A DNA stretch of 21,260 bases from a virus. The notes under the pieces were generated by a model. The model was not told where the DNA came from. It made no database searches and saw only the letters and a list, made by a program, of their open reading frames with translations. The position numbers and the translations under genes are program-made. Numbering within the stretch: the first letter of the stretch is position 1; every line of letters starts with the position of its first letter. This document shows positions 8,696 through 20,902 of the stretch, piece after piece. The stretch lies in IMG/VR virus record IMGVR_UViG_3300025400_000098, positions 1 to 21,260 of that record. The stretch is one strand, 5' to 3'.

Positions 8696-9391
8696 CTATT
8701 TTATTATAAATCCATTGTTTACATAGGTCTTAGATTTTCGATAGAACTCATCTTTTAGTTTTGAAATGACTTTCGTTAAGGTAGGAGTTTCACAATCTGT
8801 TATCTCCCTGATGTAGATATATAAAGCTTTCTTTTTAAAAATCTCTAAATCTAACCTAGTTTTAAATAGTGTTAGAATCGCATCAGCTACTTTTTGTTCT
8901 ATTTCTTTAAAAAAGTATGTATCAAGATTACTGTAACTCTCTTCAACAAACTCATCTACAATCGTGGATAGTTTTATAGTTGGAATATCTCCTACTTCCA
9001 CCTCTGTTTCGTAGGACTCTTTTACTTCCTCAAAAGAACCTATTTGTTTAACTTTTTTATAATTACGGCTATTATAATTGATAAGCCACCTTTTAATGAT
9101 TGTTCCGAAATAAGAATAAGCTTTTGCTCCTAGAGTAGGATCAAATCTATGAAGCTTCTCCTCTACCAACATTGAGATTACTTCGAGTTTTAAATCCTCA
9201 ATATCATCTACGTCTGTATAGTAGAATTTAAAAGTATGTATAATATTCTCTGAGAGTTTGTATAGAGGGTAGTAGATCTCTTTTGAAAAAATTTGATCTC
9301 TGTACACAGGATCAGAGGATGCGTTATACCTAACGATTGCATCCTCTGTTTCTTGCGTAAAATAATTACTATTTTTTACCGGTTTTGCCAT
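8696..9391 (-). CDS. Late RNA polymerase sigma factor, gp55-like
   Basis: The conserved start is probably the ATG at 9391 (MAKPVKNSNYFTQETEDAIV), giving 231 aa; an in-frame ATG at 9415 would add 8 residues (MPSVFLKT). The segment from YFTQETEDAIVRYN through FSKEIYYPLYKLSENIIHTF and RFDPTLGAKAYSYFGTIIKR matches sigma region 2 as arranged in T4 gp55 and its relatives: a core-binding helix followed by the A-Y-S-Y-F helix. The protein is too short for full regions 3 and 4, as in gp55 (185 aa). It probably directs host polymerase to late promoters such as that at 8667-8674. It overlaps the upstream membrane-protein gene by 23 bases from this start. The stop is TAG. Confidence 0.85.
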   Translation of the reverse strand: MAKPVKNSNYFTQETEDAIVRYNASSDPVYRDQIFSKEIYYPLYKLSENIIHTFKFYYTDVDDIEDLKLEVISMLVEEKLHRFDPTLGAKAYSYFGTIIKRWLINYNSRNYKKVKQIGSFEEVKESYETEVEVGDIPTIKLSTIVDEFVEESYSNLDTYFFKEIEQKVADAILTLFKTRLDLEIFKKKALYIYIREITDCETPTLTKVISKLKDEFYRKSKTYVNNGFIIK

Positions 9392-9665
9392 AGTCTTCAG
9401 GAAGACGGAAGGCATTAATAGAGTCTTGAATTTCTTTCATAAAATTAAAAAAAGTTCCTACTTCATCGTCGGCTCTAAAAATACCTTTCTCATCTATTTG
9501 TTCGATGTAAAGTTTAGATTCTTCTATTGTTAACGAAACCTTTCTTAAATATTCTATTTGAAATTCTATAATATCCTCTTGCTTAGTTACCTTCCTATGT
9601 AAATTAAAGGTCGTATACCCTAAAAGTAAAGAGGCTGTTCCTAATGTTATTAATACAGATATCAT
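9369..9665 (-). CDS. Small membrane-anchored coiled-coil protein
   Basis: This gene encodes 98 aa. An N-terminal hydrophobic helix (residues 2-21, from ISVLITLGTASLLLGYTTF) is followed by a charged helical stretch (RKVTKQEDIIEFQIEYLRKV) with heptad spacing, then a soluble tail. It is probably a single-span inner-membrane protein with its bulk in the cytoplasm. It overlaps the sigma factor gene, so the two are co-translated. The family is not recognised. Small anchored coiled-coil proteins are often spanin-, holin- or exclusion-related, but nothing here singles out one of these. Confidence 0.7.
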   Translation of the reverse strand: MISVLITLGTASLLLGYTTFNLHRKVTKQEDIIEFQIEYLRKVSLTIEESKLYIEQIDEKGIFRADDEVGTFFNFMKEIQDSINAFRLPEDYGKTGKK

Positions 9666-12029: not shown

Positions 12030-12088
12030 TTATAATACATATATATGCTTATTATAGAGAAAATTCTCCGGAAAAAAAACTGAGGGTG

Positions 12089-12120
12089 GTTGGAAATCTG
12101 TACAAAAAGTTATATATTAA
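12089..12120 (+). promoter_or_regulatory. Plus-strand promoter, GTTG-N20-TATATTAA
   Basis: GTTG at 12089-12092, exactly 20 bases, then TATATTAA at 12113-12120, one mismatch from TATATTTA. Spacing equals that of the minus-strand promoters. The predicted start (about 12124-12125) coincides with the first base of a 13-bp stem. No plus-strand gene follows, so the product is probably RNA. Confidence 0.5.
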
Positions 12121-12124
12121 AACC

Positions 12125-12430
12125 ATAAGGGGGTGTAGGTAGTGATTGGGTCTTGGGTAAGACTTGCTGGGTGATACTTAGGATGGCTGTTCTACTGAAG
12201 TAAATCGGAAGAGAAACCGGAAGAAAAAGATGGCGGGTAGAAAATTCTTAACTATATCTTAGTATATAAATATATACCCCCTTATATTGAATTTTGTCAG
12301 AAATATGCGATTCAATGTGGGCCCTAAACCTGACCGCCTACCCGTTTGAGGGAACTAAACTAGCAAGTTTATTTCAATCTGCCCTCACTATGATCTCAAC
12401 TTGATCTCACCTTGATCTCCTATCTCCCTT
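12125..12430 (+). ncRNA. Candidate structured RNA in the 12030-12457 gene-free segment
   Basis: No reading frame of note occurs on either strand. The segment holds several stems: 12125-12137 with 12273-12285 (13 pairs including one G-U if transcribed as plus strand), an adjoining hairpin 12286-12292/12310-12316, a small hairpin 12149-12164, 12234-12240 with 12338-12344 (7 pairs, crossing the first stem), and 12347-12352/12382-12387 enclosing 12357-12361/12366-12370. Two pairs are G-U on the plus strand but A-C mismatches on the minus strand, which favours plus. However, a strong minus-strand promoter at 12438-12469 points into the same segment, so an antisense transcript is also expected. The 3' end is not defined; the hairpin at 12453-12466 followed by a T-rich stretch is a candidate. 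Confidence 0.45.
12391..12419. repeat. Three direct repeats TGATCTC at 11-bp period
   Basis: TGATCTC occurs at 12391-12397, 12402-12408 and 12413-12419, exactly 11 bases apart, with a shared flanking T or AC. One helical turn per repeat places the copies on the same DNA face. They lie just downstream of the predicted minus-strand start near 12433, so a protein bound here could control that promoter. Confidence 0.6.
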
Positions 12431-12437
12431 CTATACC

Positions 12438-12469
12438 TAAATATAAGAAGAAGGAGCCTAAGCTCCAAC
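12438..12469 (-). promoter_or_regulatory. Promoter, GTTG-N20-TATATTTA, firing into gene-free segment
   Basis: On the minus strand AAAATAAAGTTG (GTTG at 12469-12466) is followed by 20 bases and TATATTTAGG (box 12445-12438), a perfect consensus match. It overlaps the end of the 284-aa gene. Downstream there is no gene for 400 bases, so it produces either an antisense RNA to the plus-strand candidate or a long leader for the gene at 12029. Confidence 0.65.
12453..12466. terminator. Short hairpin terminator within promoter spacer
   Basis: GGAGC (12453-12457) pairs with GCTCC (12462-12466) around a 4-base loop that includes part of the TAG stop of the 284-aa gene. On the minus strand the stem is followed by TTCTTCTTATATTT, on the plus strand by AACTTTATTTT. 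It could end transcripts from both sides, and it lies entirely between the two boxes of the 12438-12469 promoter. Confidence 0.45.
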
Positions 12470-15065: not shown

Positions 15066-15677
15066 CTACATAAAGATCTCATCGAACTTATTAATATAGT
15101 AATTTTTACCCATATCTTCTACCTTATCCTTATCCTTATCCTTATCCTTATCCTTATCCTTATCCTTATCCTTATCGTAAGACATCGTGGTCTCTTCTAC
15201 GGTATCGTTGGATATACCTACGACATCGTACGACATCGTGGTCTCTTCTACGGTATCGTTGGATATACCTACGACATCGTACGACATCGTGGTCTCTTCT
15301 ACGGTATCGTTGGATATACCTACGACATCGTACGACATCGTAGTATTTTGTACGACATCGTACGACATCGTAGTATTTTGTACGGTATCGTACGACATCG
15401 TAGTATTTTGTACGGTATCGTTAGAATCCCTACGATTAGATTCTCTTAGTACAGTTGTCTTTCTTGCTCCCTCTACCTTATTGGCATAAGCCTGTTTATC
15501 CCTATCTAAAGAAAATTTAATAGTGGCCCATAACATCTTTAATCCTGATGTATTTAGGATTGGTTCTTCTCCTCTGTTATAAAGGAATAGATTTTTTAGG
15601 AACTGAGCTTGTTCCTCTACTGTTAATAGTTCGAAAGAGTCTTCCCAACTAGCATAAACTAGAATTGATTTTTTCAT
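15066..15677 (-). CDS. DUF6291-like protein with long repetitive tail
   Basis: This gene encodes 203 aa. Residues 1-75 match the DUF6291 pattern of phage and prophage proteins: MKKSILVYASWEDSFELLTV, then EEQAQFLKNLFLYNRGEEP, then LKMLWATIKFSLDRDKQAY. Family members often sit beside or within replication-initiation modules. The rest is low complexity: three 10-residue and three 17-residue repeats sharing TTMSYD(V/T)V, then alternating Lys-Asp (about residues 168-186), and a short end (YYINKFDEIFM) that may be a docking peptide. Similar repetitive linkers are common in phage replisome organisers. The leader contains an attenuator-like hairpin ending 3 bases before ATG. The stop is TAG. Confidence 0.75.
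   Translation of the reverse strand: MKKSILVYASWEDSFELLTVEEQAQFLKNLFLYNRGEEPILNTSGLKMLWATIKFSLDRDKQAYANKVEGARKTTVLRESNRRDSNDTVQNTTMSYDTVQNTTMSYDVVQNTTMSYDVVGISNDTVEETTMSYDVVGISNDTVEETTMSYDVVGISNDTVEETTMSYDKDKDKDKDKDKDKDKDKVEDMGKNYYINKFDEIFM
15122..15175. repeat. Nine perfect hexamer repeats (CCTTAT)
   Basis: Nine uninterrupted copies of a 6-base unit encode the alternating Lys-Asp tract of the DUF6291-like protein. Slippage by whole units would change length without a frameshift. Confidence 0.95.
15181..15333. repeat. Three identical 51-bp tandem repeats
   Basis: Three copies of a 51-base unit, identical at every base including synonymous positions, encode a 17-residue repeat of the DUF6291-like protein. 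Identity implies recent expansion or continual homogenisation. The palindrome TCGTACGA recurs at each unit junction. Confidence 0.95.
15334..15423. repeat. Three 30-bp tandem repeats
   Basis: Three near-identical 30-base units (10 residues, core TTMSYD) follow directly from the 51-bp array and share its GACATCGT opening. The two unit lengths seem to derive from one ancestral motif. Confidence 0.9.
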
Positions 15678-16823: not shown

Positions 16824-16864
16824 TTTTTTTTAAAATAAATCTAAACATTTTATCTTATTTAAAC

Positions 16865-16980
16865 CAAATTATATTTGGTGTAAAACTATACCATGGCAGG
16901 CTTTTATTTGGTACAAAACTACACCATGGCACTTTGGATTGGCACTCTCTCTTTACATATGGGCAAATTATATTTGGTCT
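16865..16980. repeat. 33-bp direct repeats with CCATGG and ATTTGGT motifs
   Basis: A unit of about 27 conserved bases (TATTTGGT, then RYAAAACTAY, then ACCATGGCA) occurs twice at 33-bp spacing (from about 16873 and 16906). The 15-base stretch beginning CAAATTATATTTGG, with the following T, recurs at 16964-16978. The first copy includes the inverted repeat ACCAAAT/ATTTGGT. The cluster lies between the minus promoter at 16792 and the plus promoter at 17003, the place for an operator shared by divergent units. Confidence 0.7.
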
Positions 16981-17002: not shown

Positions 17003-17034
17003 GTTGTCTAGGAAGTATCTTCTTCTTATATTTA
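17003..17034 (+). promoter_or_regulatory. Plus-strand promoter, GTTG-N20-TATATTTA
   Basis: AAAATAAAGTTG (GTTG 17003-17006), exactly 20 bases, TATATTTAGGTATC (box 17027-17034). It is a perfect consensus match on the strand opposite to all genes, and it leads into small RNA candidate 1. Confidence 0.7.
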
Positions 17035-17037
17035 GGT

Positions 17038-17146
17038 ATCAAAAGGAAACGATGATAGGCGCCTAATAGCAAGGGTGAAGAAATCAGACGTAGTTTGTTT
17101 TTATTTTTTTTATACAGTAAAAAAATAAGTCCCTTGCTCGGACTTA
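17038..17146 (+). ncRNA. Small RNA candidate 1 (shares 43-base element with candidate 2)
   Basis: From the predicted start the transcript contains a 43-base element (17057-17099) found again at 17723-17765 with only two differences, both C/T. The element opens with the palindrome GGCGCC, which could let copies pair with each other, and includes AAGGGTGAAGAAATCAGACG. No reading frame is conserved: copy 1 has a four-codon ATG frame that copy 2 lacks. A T-rich stretch follows at 17098-17112, and the hairpin at 17126-17146 could end the RNA. Within the RNA, 17068-17075 can pair with 17131-17138 (8 bases). Confidence 0.6.
17119..17146 (-). terminator. Rho-independent terminator of the 133-aa gene
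   Basis: On the minus strand TAAGTCC and GGACTTA form a 7-bp stem (17146-17140 with 17132-17126) around a 7-base loop, followed by seven T residues (17125-17119). It lies 24 bases beyond the TAA of the 133-aa gene. The same hairpin on the plus strand is followed by CTTTCTAATTTT and may act in both directions. Confidence 0.8.
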
Positions 17147-17169
17147 CTTTCTAATTTTCAACTGTTTCT

Positions 17170-17571
17170 TTAAACTAATTGTAACTCTTTAATATACTCT
17201 TTTCCGTCATAATCCTGGATGCCTATTTTAGACATATAAGCATAAATCATATTAGAGACTAACCGATTATCTACTGTCTTCTTGTTTTCAGTAATCCAAC
17301 CCTGATTCATAATATGATCTGCTGAATCCTCAATACAGATAATACTTCCTTGGATCGACCCATTATCTGATATGGTATTTTCAATTAGAGTTTCTGCATA
17401 CTCTTTATGGAATACCTGGAGAGCTTGTGTTAAACCCCCTCTTTCAATTTGTTCCTGGTTCATATCTTCCAAGACCTTTCTAATGAATACCGGAATCATT
17501 TGATCTAAAGAAGTAGCTTGAGAGTAAATGTAGTGCCTTCCATTAAGTACGGTACCAAATTGCTTTTTCAT
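17170..17571 (-). CDS. Hypothetical protein flanked by the two small RNA candidates
   Basis: This gene encodes 133 aa of unrecognised family, mixed alpha/beta. Features are a Tyr-rich N-terminus (GTVLNGRHYIYSQATSLDQM), an acidic helical middle and a strand pair around NGSIQGSIICIEDSADHIMN. It has its own promoter and its own rho-independent terminator, so it is a monocistronic unit, uncommon for this window. Each side carries one copy of the plus-strand small RNA element. That arrangement suggests either that gene and RNA are a functional unit or that the RNA cassettes were duplicated around it. Confidence 0.75.
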   Translation of the reverse strand: MKKQFGTVLNGRHYIYSQATSLDQMIPVFIRKVLEDMNQEQIERGGLTQALQVFHKEYAETLIENTISDNGSIQGSIICIEDSADHIMNQGWITENKKTVDNRLVSNMIYAYMSKIGIQDYDGKEYIKELQLV

Positions 17572-17600
17572 AATCTTTTTTTTTAGTTTCTTTCTATACC

Positions 17601-17632
17601 TAAATATATGAATAAGGTAGGAAGGTCCAAAC
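17601..17632 (-). promoter_or_regulatory. Promoter, GTTTG-N19-TATATTTA
   Basis: AAAGTTTG followed by TATATTTAGGTATAG with the box at 17608-17601. One extra T in the -33 box is offset by a spacer of 19, so the GTT-to-box distance is unchanged. It drives the 133-aa gene. Confidence 0.65.
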
Positions 17633-17671
17633 TTTATATGAACTTTTTTATTTAATTTATTTTGAAATAAA

Positions 17672-17703
17672 GTTGTTAGTTAAGATCTTGGTTCGTATCT
17701 TTA
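17672..17703 (+). promoter_or_regulatory. Plus-strand promoter, GTTG-N20-TATCTTTA
   Basis: AAATAAAGTTG (GTTG 17672-17675), exactly 20 bases, TATCTTTAGGTA (box 17696-17703). It leads into small RNA candidate 2 with the 43-base element 19 bases downstream, against 22 in copy 1. Confidence 0.7.
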
Positions 17704-17707
17704 GGTA

Positions 17708-17778
17708 CTTAGGAAGATAAGGAGGCGCCCAATAGTAAGGGTGAAGAAATCAGACGTAGTTTGTTCAAGGGATTTTTT
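17708..17778 (+). ncRNA. Small RNA candidate 2
   Basis: This is the paralogue of the RNA at 17038-17146. The shared element is at 17723-17765, followed by CAAGGGA and seven T residues ending about 17779. The region between promoter and element differs from copy 1, so conservation is confined to the RNA core and the promoter boxes. The T to C change in GGCGCC(C/T) strengthens a possible CCC/GGG hairpin. The 3' end is not certain because no strong GC stem precedes the T run. Confidence 0.55.
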
Positions 17779-17803
17779 TCTTAAGTAATCAATTAGGCCA
17801 GGC

Positions 17804-18094
17804 CTAGCGCCTGGTAAGCATACTAATCAAAGCTGCTCTCTCATAAGTATCCCAGCCCCACTGGTAAAGCTTCTGCATCTCCTGAGAGTAATTCTTAAAA
17901 TAAGTCATAACTTTATCAGTATCATTATTGAATTTTAACATTTGTCTATAGAGATCCCCCTTTATCGTCTTCTTTCCTTTCTCAGTAAGCCGAATGATAA
18001 GAGATTCTTCTACATAAGAGAAAATAGTTGATACCTGCCCTTTAGTTAGTTTAGCTGCCTGTTTAATTTCTGTATAATTCCTATTGATTTCCAT
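17804..18094 (-). CDS. Hypothetical protein, possible winged-helix
   Basis: I choose the ATG at 18094, giving 96 aa (MEINRNYTEIKQAAKLTKGQ), because a consensus promoter at 18098-18129 ends 4 bases before it. The open frame continues to 18367, but that extension runs through the promoter and a 12-bp repeat array and would give a tetrapeptide repeat (TRLV) and a hydrophobic stretch. The N-terminal half (EIKQAAKLTKGQVSTIFSYV, then EESLIIRLTEKGKKTIKGDL) looks like a small winged-helix or HTH protein. The C-terminus is helical (MQKLYQWGWDTYERAALISM). It may be an early transcription regulator. The stop TAG lies in a GC-rich hairpin (CCAGGC/GCCTGG). Confidence 0.7.
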   Translation of the reverse strand: MEINRNYTEIKQAAKLTKGQVSTIFSYVEESLIIRLTEKGKKTIKGDLYRQMLKFNNDTDKVMTYFKNYSQEMQKLYQWGWDTYERAALISMLTRR

Positions 18095-18097
18095 ACC

Positions 18098-18129
18098 TAA
18101 AGATAAGAATAGGAAGGCAAATAAGCAAC
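18098..18129 (-). promoter_or_regulatory. Promoter, GTTG-N20-TATCTTTA, leaderless start
   Basis: GTTG at 18129-18126, 20 bases, TATCTTTAGGTATGG with the box at 18105-18098. The ATG begins 3 bases after the box, so the transcript should start at or next to the start codon. Confidence 0.65.
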
Positions 18130-18165
18130 TATAATAGCAAATAAAAGAAATAAAAAGACAGAATA

Positions 18166-18321
18166 GGATCTCTAATTGGGTCTCTGGTTGGGCCTCTGGT
18201 AGGGTCTCTAGTTGGGTTACGAGTCGGGTTACGAGTCGGGTTACGAGTCGGGTTACGAGTCGGGTTTCTGGTCGGGTTTCTAATAGGGTTTCTGGTCGGG
18301 TTACGAGTCGGGTTACAGGAC
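18166..18321. repeat. 12-bp repeat array, about 13 units
   Basis: About thirteen contiguous 12-base units open mostly with GGGT. Five are exactly GGGTTACGAGTC; the rest are variants such as GGGTTTCTGGTC and GGGTCTCTAGTT. Read on the minus strand in one frame they give Thr-x-Leu/Pro-x repeats (TRLV, TRPE, TQLE). It is either an iteron cluster or a remnant of a repetitive protein linker. Confidence 0.9.
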
Positions 18322-18599
18322 AGGTATTTTTCTCTATTTTCTTACTTTTCTCTATAAGAAAATACAATATTTTAGGGGAAAATCCTGCTCTATAGAGGAA
18401 AAAGGTAAGAGAGGTACAGGTTTTCCTAAATTTCAGGTTTCTGCTTCCGGACCAACCCTACCCTTCTTTTACACAACCTAACCTATTTCCCTTATTTCCT
18501 CTATTTTTCCTTTACCTCCCTACCTACAGTTTTCTACACTATACCTCTCTCTTATACTCTTCCCTATCCTCCCTTTCCTTTCCTTTTATGTATGTAATT
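18322..18599. other. Gene-free, strand-asymmetric segment between repeat arrays
   Basis: No convincing gene is present. From about 18420 to 18595 the plus strand is overwhelmingly C and T and the minus strand purine, with many AGG and GGAAA blocks on the minus strand. It is bounded on both sides by 12-bp repeat arrays of the same family, the layout expected of a replication origin or a recombination site. Confidence 0.5.
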
Positions 18600-19810: not shown

Positions 19811-20125
19811 TTAAATAATTCCTAGAGTCTTAGCTCTGTAGTAGCCAACCAATTTACCGTTGTTTGGATTTAAGAATTTTTGTTCACTCCTAGGCTTATC
19901 TTTATTTTCCATCATAAGCTTCTCTTCTGGAAGTTTAAAAGAGGCAGGGTAAATAAGTTCAACAGAGATTGGTCCATTTGCGAACTTATCTAAATCATAA
20001 GTCCAGACTGAAGTAACTCCTTCTCTATTTGTGGAGGTTCTGGTAAATTTAGTTCTTAGAATCTCTTCTTCTTGTTTCTTCTTATAGTAGCTAATAGCTG
20101 TTTTTTCCTCTACTGTCTTTTTCAT
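19811..20125 (-). CDS. Hypothetical small basic protein
   Basis: This gene encodes 104 aa of unrecognised family. An N-terminal charged helix (EEKTAISYYKKKQEEEILRT) is followed by a beta-rich part (TSVWTYDLDKFANGPISVEL) and a C-terminus with a Gly-Tyr-Tyr motif (NPNNGKLVGYYRAKTLGII). It has its own consensus promoter and a short A-rich leader before ATG. No motif suggests activity. Confidence 0.7.
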   Translation of the reverse strand: MKKTVEEKTAISYYKKKQEEEILRTKFTRTSTNREGVTSVWTYDLDKFANGPISVELIYPASFKLPEEKLMMENKDKPRSEQKFLNPNNGKLVGYYRAKTLGII

Positions 20126-20275: not shown

Positions 20276-20902
20276 TTATATATCTTGTAAAGACAATCCT
20301 GACTGTCTTCTTATTTCCTCCACAGTAGTCAGATACTGTATATAATGCTTTTCGTTTACTTCCTCTTTATTAGGCATTATAAATGCTAATGTAATTCTGT
20401 TATCGTATTTAATGATCTTCCAGCAGTATTCTGGGATAGTTATTGTATTGACTATCTTACCTATATCCCCATAACTCCCACACCATACTTCAACTCTCTT
20501 ATCATTTTTGGCTAGTAGTCTGGTAATCTCTTCTAACTTCTTCCAAGTAATCCTGTTTAAATTAGGATGTTGAGGAGTCATATTAGTATAATAAAAAGAC
20601 TCTGTTTCAGCTTGTTCTGAAAATTGATTATCTTTAGCTGGGCAATTATGTCCTCTGTCGTAATCTCCGCTTTCCCATACCTGCTGTACACTTTCGTTTA
20701 GAATAGGATCAGCTTGGAAGTTATTTCCTCTATCTACCGATGTAGATCCTTCAACTAAATCTTGATCTACTTCTACCCAGTTTACTAGAGTAGGGTAGTG
20801 TAGTTCCGTATCGTAGGTTAAGCTATAATGTTCATGTTTAATTTCTACGTAACGTGGTATAGATTTGGATACTTGCTGTGTTTGAGGTAGTTTTCTTTTC
20901 AT
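20276..20902 (-). CDS. DNA/RNA non-specific endonuclease (DRGH, beta-beta-alpha metal)
   Basis: This gene encodes 208 aa. The active-site motif DRGH (residues 82-85, in GDYDRGHNCPAKDNQ) holds the general-base His of the Serratia-nuclease/NucA family. It is followed by FYYTNMTPQHPNLNRITWKK (103-122), with the metal-binding Asn (in TNMTPQ) and the N-x-x-x-W/LE helix, as in relatives. Residues 23-60 carry the usual lead strands. There is no signal peptide, so it acts inside the cell or is packaged, most likely degrading host DNA or RNA to supply nucleotides, or attacking competing phage DNA. No consensus promoter is visible, and the leader has an inverted repeat (AGTTA/TAACT). Confidence 0.88.
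   Translation of the reverse strand: MKRKLPQTQQVSKSIPRYVEIKHEHYSLTYDTELHYPTLVNWVEVDQDLVEGSTSVDRGNNFQADPILNESVQQVWESGDYDRGHNCPAKDNQFSEQAETESFYYTNMTPQHPNLNRITWKKLEEITRLLAKNDKRVEVWCGSYGDIGKIVNTITIPEYCWKIIKYDNRITLAFIMPNKEEVNEKHYIQYLTTVEEIRRQSGLSLQDI

Follow-up and report, generated by a model that had tools for sequence, protein, structure and literature searches.

The window, that is, the whole 21,260-nt stretch of viral DNA analysed here, very probably contains two genuine small-RNA genes on its plus strand. Comparison with related phages establishes, at the level of sequence, their promoter, orientation, non-coding character, two-copy organisation, conserved core and covarying hairpin (P2), and we infer that both RNAs are transcribed and that they work in trans in folded form. 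The reading that we favour, tentatively and with slightly less than even confidence, is a conserved pair of independent small-RNA genes acting by titration of a conserved host RNA-binding protein, as decoy or takeover RNAs. Both genes would be transcribed independently from a promoter of the phage gene type on the strand opposite to the neighbouring genes, the folded RNA would meet a protein partner reading its shape plus the linker, and the host RNA-binding protein would be titrated by the RNA during infection. The genes and the features around them are situated as follows:

17003..17038, plus strand: promoter of RNA copy 1 (GTTG at 17003-17006, 20-nt spacer, TATATTTAGGTA at 17027-17038)
17040..17112, plus strand: predicted small RNA 1 (start deduced from the promoter, end from the U-run at 17098-17111)
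17057..17099, plus strand: conserved core, copy 1 (P2 17060-17064 with 17073-17077, linker GAAGAAAU, small hairpin 17085-17089 with 17093-17097)
17117..17146, minus strand: terminator-like hairpin and U-run belonging to the 133-aa gene, pointing towards the end of RNA 1
17170..17571, minus strand: 133-aa gene of unknown function between both RNA genes, not conserved at this place in relatives
17672..17707, plus strand: promoter of RNA copy 2 (GTTG at 17672-17675, 20-nt spacer, TATCTTTAGGTA at 17696-17707)
17709..17779, plus strand: predicted small RNA 2 (start deduced from the promoter, end from the T-run at 17773-17779)
17723..17765, plus strand: conserved core, copy 2 (P2 17726-17730 with 17739-17743, linker, small hairpin 17751-17755 with 17759-17763)

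The two 43-nt elements are identical at 41 of 43 positions; one of the two differences retains a stem pair (U.G versus C-G), and the other is located in a hairpin loop. With an inner 23-nt probe and up to three mismatches, both elements are the sole matches in the window, and none was found in 100 shuffles. All long ORFs of the window lie on the minus strand, and hardly any overlap would be expected between the transcripts of RNA 1 and the 133-aa gene. The initial annotation had described this pair of 43-base copies with two differences among protein genes confined to the minus strand, and both statements hold. A plus-strand promoter does stand upstream of each element as claimed; the elements start 18 and 15 nt after the 12-mer, and the 19-22 bases given in the annotation vary with the chosen end of the box. 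The stretch between promoter and element, described as not conserved, differs between the window copies, whereas the leader is conserved in relatives.

Several repeats surround the pair. Just upstream of the copy 1 promoter, at 16860-16931, the palindrome ACCAAATTATATTTGGT and the direct repeats TATTTGGTGTAAAACTATACCATGGCA / TATTTGGTACAAAACTACACCATGGCA could form a candidate regulator-binding site. A 12-nt tandem repeat of the GGGTTACGAGTC type occupies 18149-18325; if the gene at 17804-18094 starts at the ATG just behind the promoter at 18129, this repeat is upstream of the promoter and non-coding. Tandem repeats of 51 nt and 30 nt (15168-15435) are situated within the ORF at 15066-15677, which matches PHROGs of unknown function.

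Both elements are preceded by the motif GTTG-N20-TATHTTTAGG, which occurs seven times in the window versus 0.005 expected, with a spacer of 20 in every case. Five of these motifs lie on the minus strand and two on the plus strand, and both plus-strand cases precede the elements. The same motif stands before genes of the window phage and of Flavobacterium phage immuto, and on this pattern the promoter of the elements is of the phage's own gene promoter type. In immuto, a slightly looser motif, read over 144 kb, is found 19 times on the gene strand and once on the other strand, and this single opposite-strand promoter precedes a predicted RNA gene, GGGGCCUGG-hairpin-GGAAGAGUAGAC. The motif resembles the Bacteroidota TAnnTTTG box. 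A sigma-70 promoter scan of the window gave no excess (33 found versus 35.5 in shuffles), and a sigma-70 identity of the element promoters was ruled out, the scan being at shuffle level. Elsewhere, on the minus strand at 12030-12469, approximately 400 nt without a long reading frame, beginning with GAGATCA repeats, lie behind a strong gene-type promoter (GTTG at 12469) and may be a long leader or a further non-coding RNA.

The window phage, an IMG/VR fragment, is a relative of immuto (NC_055915). Sixteen consecutive proteins up to 12029 are collinear with immuto, mostly at 48-81% identity, including the baseplate protein at 67%. From 12029 to the next anchor (19811-20125), the gene content differs from immuto, and the opposite-strand RNA is situated here in both phages. 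Two further minus-strand genes were recognised: the product of 8696-9415, which shares 72% identity with immuto and is without a PHROG match, has, by eye, the look of a T4 gp55-type late sigma factor, and 20276-20902 encodes a DNA/RNA non-specific endonuclease (Endonuclease_NS, Pfam PF01223, E 1.6e-35). The proteins of the window are nearer to those of immuto (67-72%), yet its RNA core is of a different type, here called type B, as distinct from the immuto type, or type A.

Exact and near-exact core searches of viral contigs at first returned the same phage only (L001, 99.6%), megablast of the right part of the window against INPHARED gave no match, and the 133-aa gene, tried as a route to relatives, was dropped because it led to the same phage only. 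A promoter-first search revealed the type B relatives missed by pattern searches. The core TGAAGANATCAGACGTAG matches seven further contigs (L394, L398, L424, L426, L427, L428/L429 and L431), which represent four lineages beyond that of the window, and in all seven it follows the same promoter type and lies outside genes. Strong gene promoters or neighbouring ORFs are mainly on the strand opposite to the RNA in six of the seven; the exception is L424, with a weaker promoter box, neighbouring ORFs on the RNA strand and one copy. The type B covariance model (R2) detects exactly two copies in each of the six contigs other than L424, separated by 784, 798, 858 and, in three contigs, 1517 nt, and scores the window cores at 54.7 bits (copy 1) and 57.8 bits (copy 2), both being themselves in the model. 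The order of the two copies is conserved across the six contigs, and the flanked genes are unrelated: a 133-aa gene in the window, a phrog_12094 match plus a 75-aa gene in L398 and L427, and other small genes elsewhere. Since the intervening genes differ between phages, conservation applies to the RNA pair and not to the cargo. Other 18-mer matches, in L422, L423, L425 and L430, have no promoter and look like chance occurrences.

The baseplate proteins of the type B lineages are 51-71% identical to one another (two near-identical contigs aside) and 47-51% identical to that of the window, and the 'a' copies of the RNA from three lineages are 92-94% identical; on this comparison, the RNA changes more slowly than the structural proteins. 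Within one genome outside the window, the a and b copies are 68-79% alike. Because the 'a' copies agree so much better across lineages than a and b do within a genome, both paralogues are old and separately kept. The two window copies are more alike (80%), owing to recent duplication or conversion.

Each type B RNA is predicted to be approximately 70 nt long and to end with a hairpin and a U-run. The order of parts is a short leader, hairpin P2, the purine-rich linker GAAGARAU, the hairpin CAGAC-GUA-GUUUG and the U-run; the copies have in common RGGCG, then P2, then GAAGARAUC, and the core UGAAGARAUCAGACGUAG hardly changes, while leader and tail vary. In P2, all cells are paired in nine sequences and two pairs have changes on both sides, against 13-49% of cells paired in slid registers. 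The third pair of the second hairpin appears as G-U, G-C and A-U among copies, with a mismatch in some. The folding energy of the RNAs is no better than that of shuffles, no consistent reading frame runs from leader to core among the copies, and no family of Rfam 15 is reached by the type B RNA at the curated gathering threshold.

These comparisons bear out the central proposals of the initial annotation: two paralogous plus-strand non-coding RNA genes, supported by promoters and relatives; selection on the RNA core, which is nearly fixed beside a covarying P2 and a shifting frame; and an undescribed family, matched by nothing in Rfam. Covariance-model searching, which it had recommended, recovered two copies in each of six contigs, and homologues lacking a promoter or lying inside genes, which it had named as contrary evidence, did not appear: every homologue from this phage group stands behind the promoter and outside genes. 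Its picture of a pair flanking one gene survives as a two-copy organisation in six other contigs, but not as to the gene, which is not conserved. The palindrome GGCGCC, proposed as a site of RNA-RNA pairing, is not supported in that role: relatives have GGGCGG, and these bases belong to a hairpin stem that changes by compensation.

The type A RNA follows the pattern (G)GGC-P2-GGAAGAGUAGAC and is present in two cultured phages:

NC_055915 67453-67508, minus strand: type A RNA of immuto
ON950054 18781-18836: type A RNA of Tenacibaculum phage Larrie

Larrie is filed under Cbastvirus. The annotated gp146 of immuto (NC_055915 67454-67552; L009 7455-7553) overlaps the RNA gene on the other strand and probably encodes no genuine protein. 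Viral contig scans (IMG/VR) gave 56 and then at least 120 type A loci, with at least 132 distinct sequences and one to five copies per record; 14 of 19 type A records, including Larrie, are without a relative of the window's baseplate protein, though some may be fragments. In the type A P2, 99 cells have changes on both sides, 0 of 500 shuffles being as high, and the signal collapses on a one-column slide. The second hairpin, GUAG/CUAC, is 91% paired, in copies all found via an exact 12-mer holding its 5' side. Long-range pairings of a 5' GGG with a CCU close to the 3' end, and of GGGC with GUCC, were dropped, as they fit some type A members only.

No Rfam family matches the type A RNA, and no match was found in plasmids. 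Among 84,980 scanned genomes of bacteria and archaea, 49 matches came up, nearly all by chance and in unrelated taxa; the real members are L160 and L190 only, which are probably phage contigs within assemblies. The exact 12-mer occurs in two published papers, both on unrelated matters, and searches of the open-access literature gave no described Bacteroidota phage RNA of this kind. A fixed partner gene was sought for either RNA type, and none is constant across phage types. A divergent gene of 124-131 aa is common near the type A RNA in immuto types and absent in the window. In one phage type (L229, L282, L217, L220 and approximately 60 other loci), paralogous genes of 75-125 aa (RFVVRKSLIGKNQ...KYNHD...) alternate with type A RNAs on the same strand, and RNA and protein may form a pair in that group; the window has no such alternating genes beside its type B RNAs. 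In L009, L035 and L041, the type A RNAs continue for approximately 150 nt as degenerate ACTTTAACTTAAAG-like repeats, followed by a strong terminator.

Types A and B are probably one family, although the window pair is not filed as a proven member. Their sister status is drawn from the same slot, promoter and architecture: in the immuto clade, A and B have the same promoter, the same slot and the opposite strand, and the non-coding units behind the promoter are nearly all of type A. The part order common to both is RGGC, a covarying hairpin, a GAAGAR linker, AGAC, a second hairpin and a U-run, with a covarying P2 directly before the purine linker in window type and immuto type alike. The pattern [AG]GGC[CG]-N6-26-GAAGA[AG]-N1-3-AGAC retrieves only A and B members in 7.9 Mb, with 1-2 per 10,000 shuffles, in a search where the pattern was chosen afterwards and the loci were enriched for members. 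The two types differ in the spacing from linker to AGAC and in the 3' half. The type A model (R1), strict because every copy used to build it has the exact 12-mer, finds no type B, and R2 finds no type A, with no match in ten genomes carrying that type. In local alignment against the immuto-clade RNAs, the window copies are not significant, and their relatives L398b and L394 reach approximately 1% in shuffles.

As to function, base pairing is the commonest known role among bacterial and phage small RNAs, and the short, nearly fixed, seed-like core would suit a regulator that base-pairs with a host or phage messenger through its linker or hairpin loops, altering translation or decay. Such a role is nevertheless unlikely, as the core has no exact complement longer than 9 nt within the scanned window, a length no greater than shuffled cores give, and the conserved stretch is mostly inside a predicted hairpin. 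A cis element, i.e., a leader, attenuator or bidirectional terminator for neighbouring genes, is improbable: the end of copy 1 does face the terminator of the 133-aa gene, and type A RNAs alternate with same-strand genes in another phage type, but each copy has its own promoter and U-run end, the neighbouring genes vary among phages, and the RNA strand has no following gene in the window and six of seven relatives. The layout of a riboswitch or cis-leader, with a co-transcribed same-strand gene downstream, is accordingly absent from window and relatives, L424 being the exception in orientation. The different genes between the copies in different phages could also point to recombination blocks, in which the copies anchor cassette exchange and the RNA is incidental; copies only 68-79% alike within a genome would be poor substrates for homologous exchange, and the covarying hairpin would be left without explanation, which makes this quite improbable.

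An RNA anti-CRISPR or other mimic of a defence RNA, such as a solitary CRISPR-repeat decoy, is highly improbable, since no Rfam model matched and the genome scan for the sister motif showed no bacterial arrays, even if a short independent phage RNA with its own promoter recalls the solitary repeat units (PMC10651486). That the core is a very short coding gene, read in the frame NTG AAG ARA TCR RAC GNA GNY, is scarcely credible: no copy read has a stop in this frame within the core, and in both window copies the open stretch covers most of the RNA, but translation would have to begin at GTG, CTG or TTG, the frame from leader to core shifts among copies (L398), the core changes are mostly non-synonymous in this single open frame, and the frame extends into the U-run at its end. 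Judged from the window by itself, the pair could be a recent duplication; conservation across five lineages at 47-71% protein identity renders a functionless chance duplication extremely improbable. Host-protein titration is the leading reading because P2 is free to change while still pairing and the linker and second hairpin hardly change, so the likely partner is a protein reading shape plus linker. That this partner belongs to the host is favoured by the spread of the RNAs over phages that differ in make-up, by the lack of a constant phage gene beside them and by their absence from host chromosomes. To go from a conserved RNA to a decoy for a host protein is a step made by elimination only. 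Doubtful, though of wider reach, is the extension that the window pair and the immuto-type RNAs form one superfamily of phage RNA decoys in unrelated phages, imitating the RNA ligand of a conserved host protein involved in defence or RNA turnover and thus disarming it; if true, it would amount to a general RNA-based counter-defence outside the CRISPR field.

The maintenance of the pair in distantly related phages suggests that it is probably useful during infection, in a role not yet described. To our knowledge, few phage small RNAs are conserved across phage lineages; type B and its probable sister family together number over 130 distinct copies, have no Rfam entry and occur whether or not the phage carries the baseplate gene of the window. 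Should the RNAs be decoys, they would point to a conserved host factor whose neutralisation many phages require. Since immuto and Larrie, both cultured, carry the sister type, expression, binding partner and need are directly testable there, the window phage itself being uncultured.

Among known systems, the stable RNAs C and D of T4 are small phage RNAs of unknown role located within a tRNA cluster. The window RNAs are likewise small phage RNAs, set apart from C and D by description, not by sequence, and a tRNA search of the window found none, unlike the T4 setting. ToxI-type RNA antitoxins of type III toxin-antitoxin systems are short structured RNAs arranged in a tandem array with the toxin gene next door. 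The window RNA is also short and structured and could bind a protein, but it forms no tandem array and has no constant adjoining toxin gene; the type III layout, RNA repeats followed by a same-strand toxin gene, is absent in window and relatives. Solitary CRISPR repeat units (Racrs) are short phage non-coding RNAs with their own promoter (PMC10651486). The window RNAs resemble them in these respects and as possible decoys, and differ in their retention as a pair and in a conserved core predicted to fold into two hairpins.
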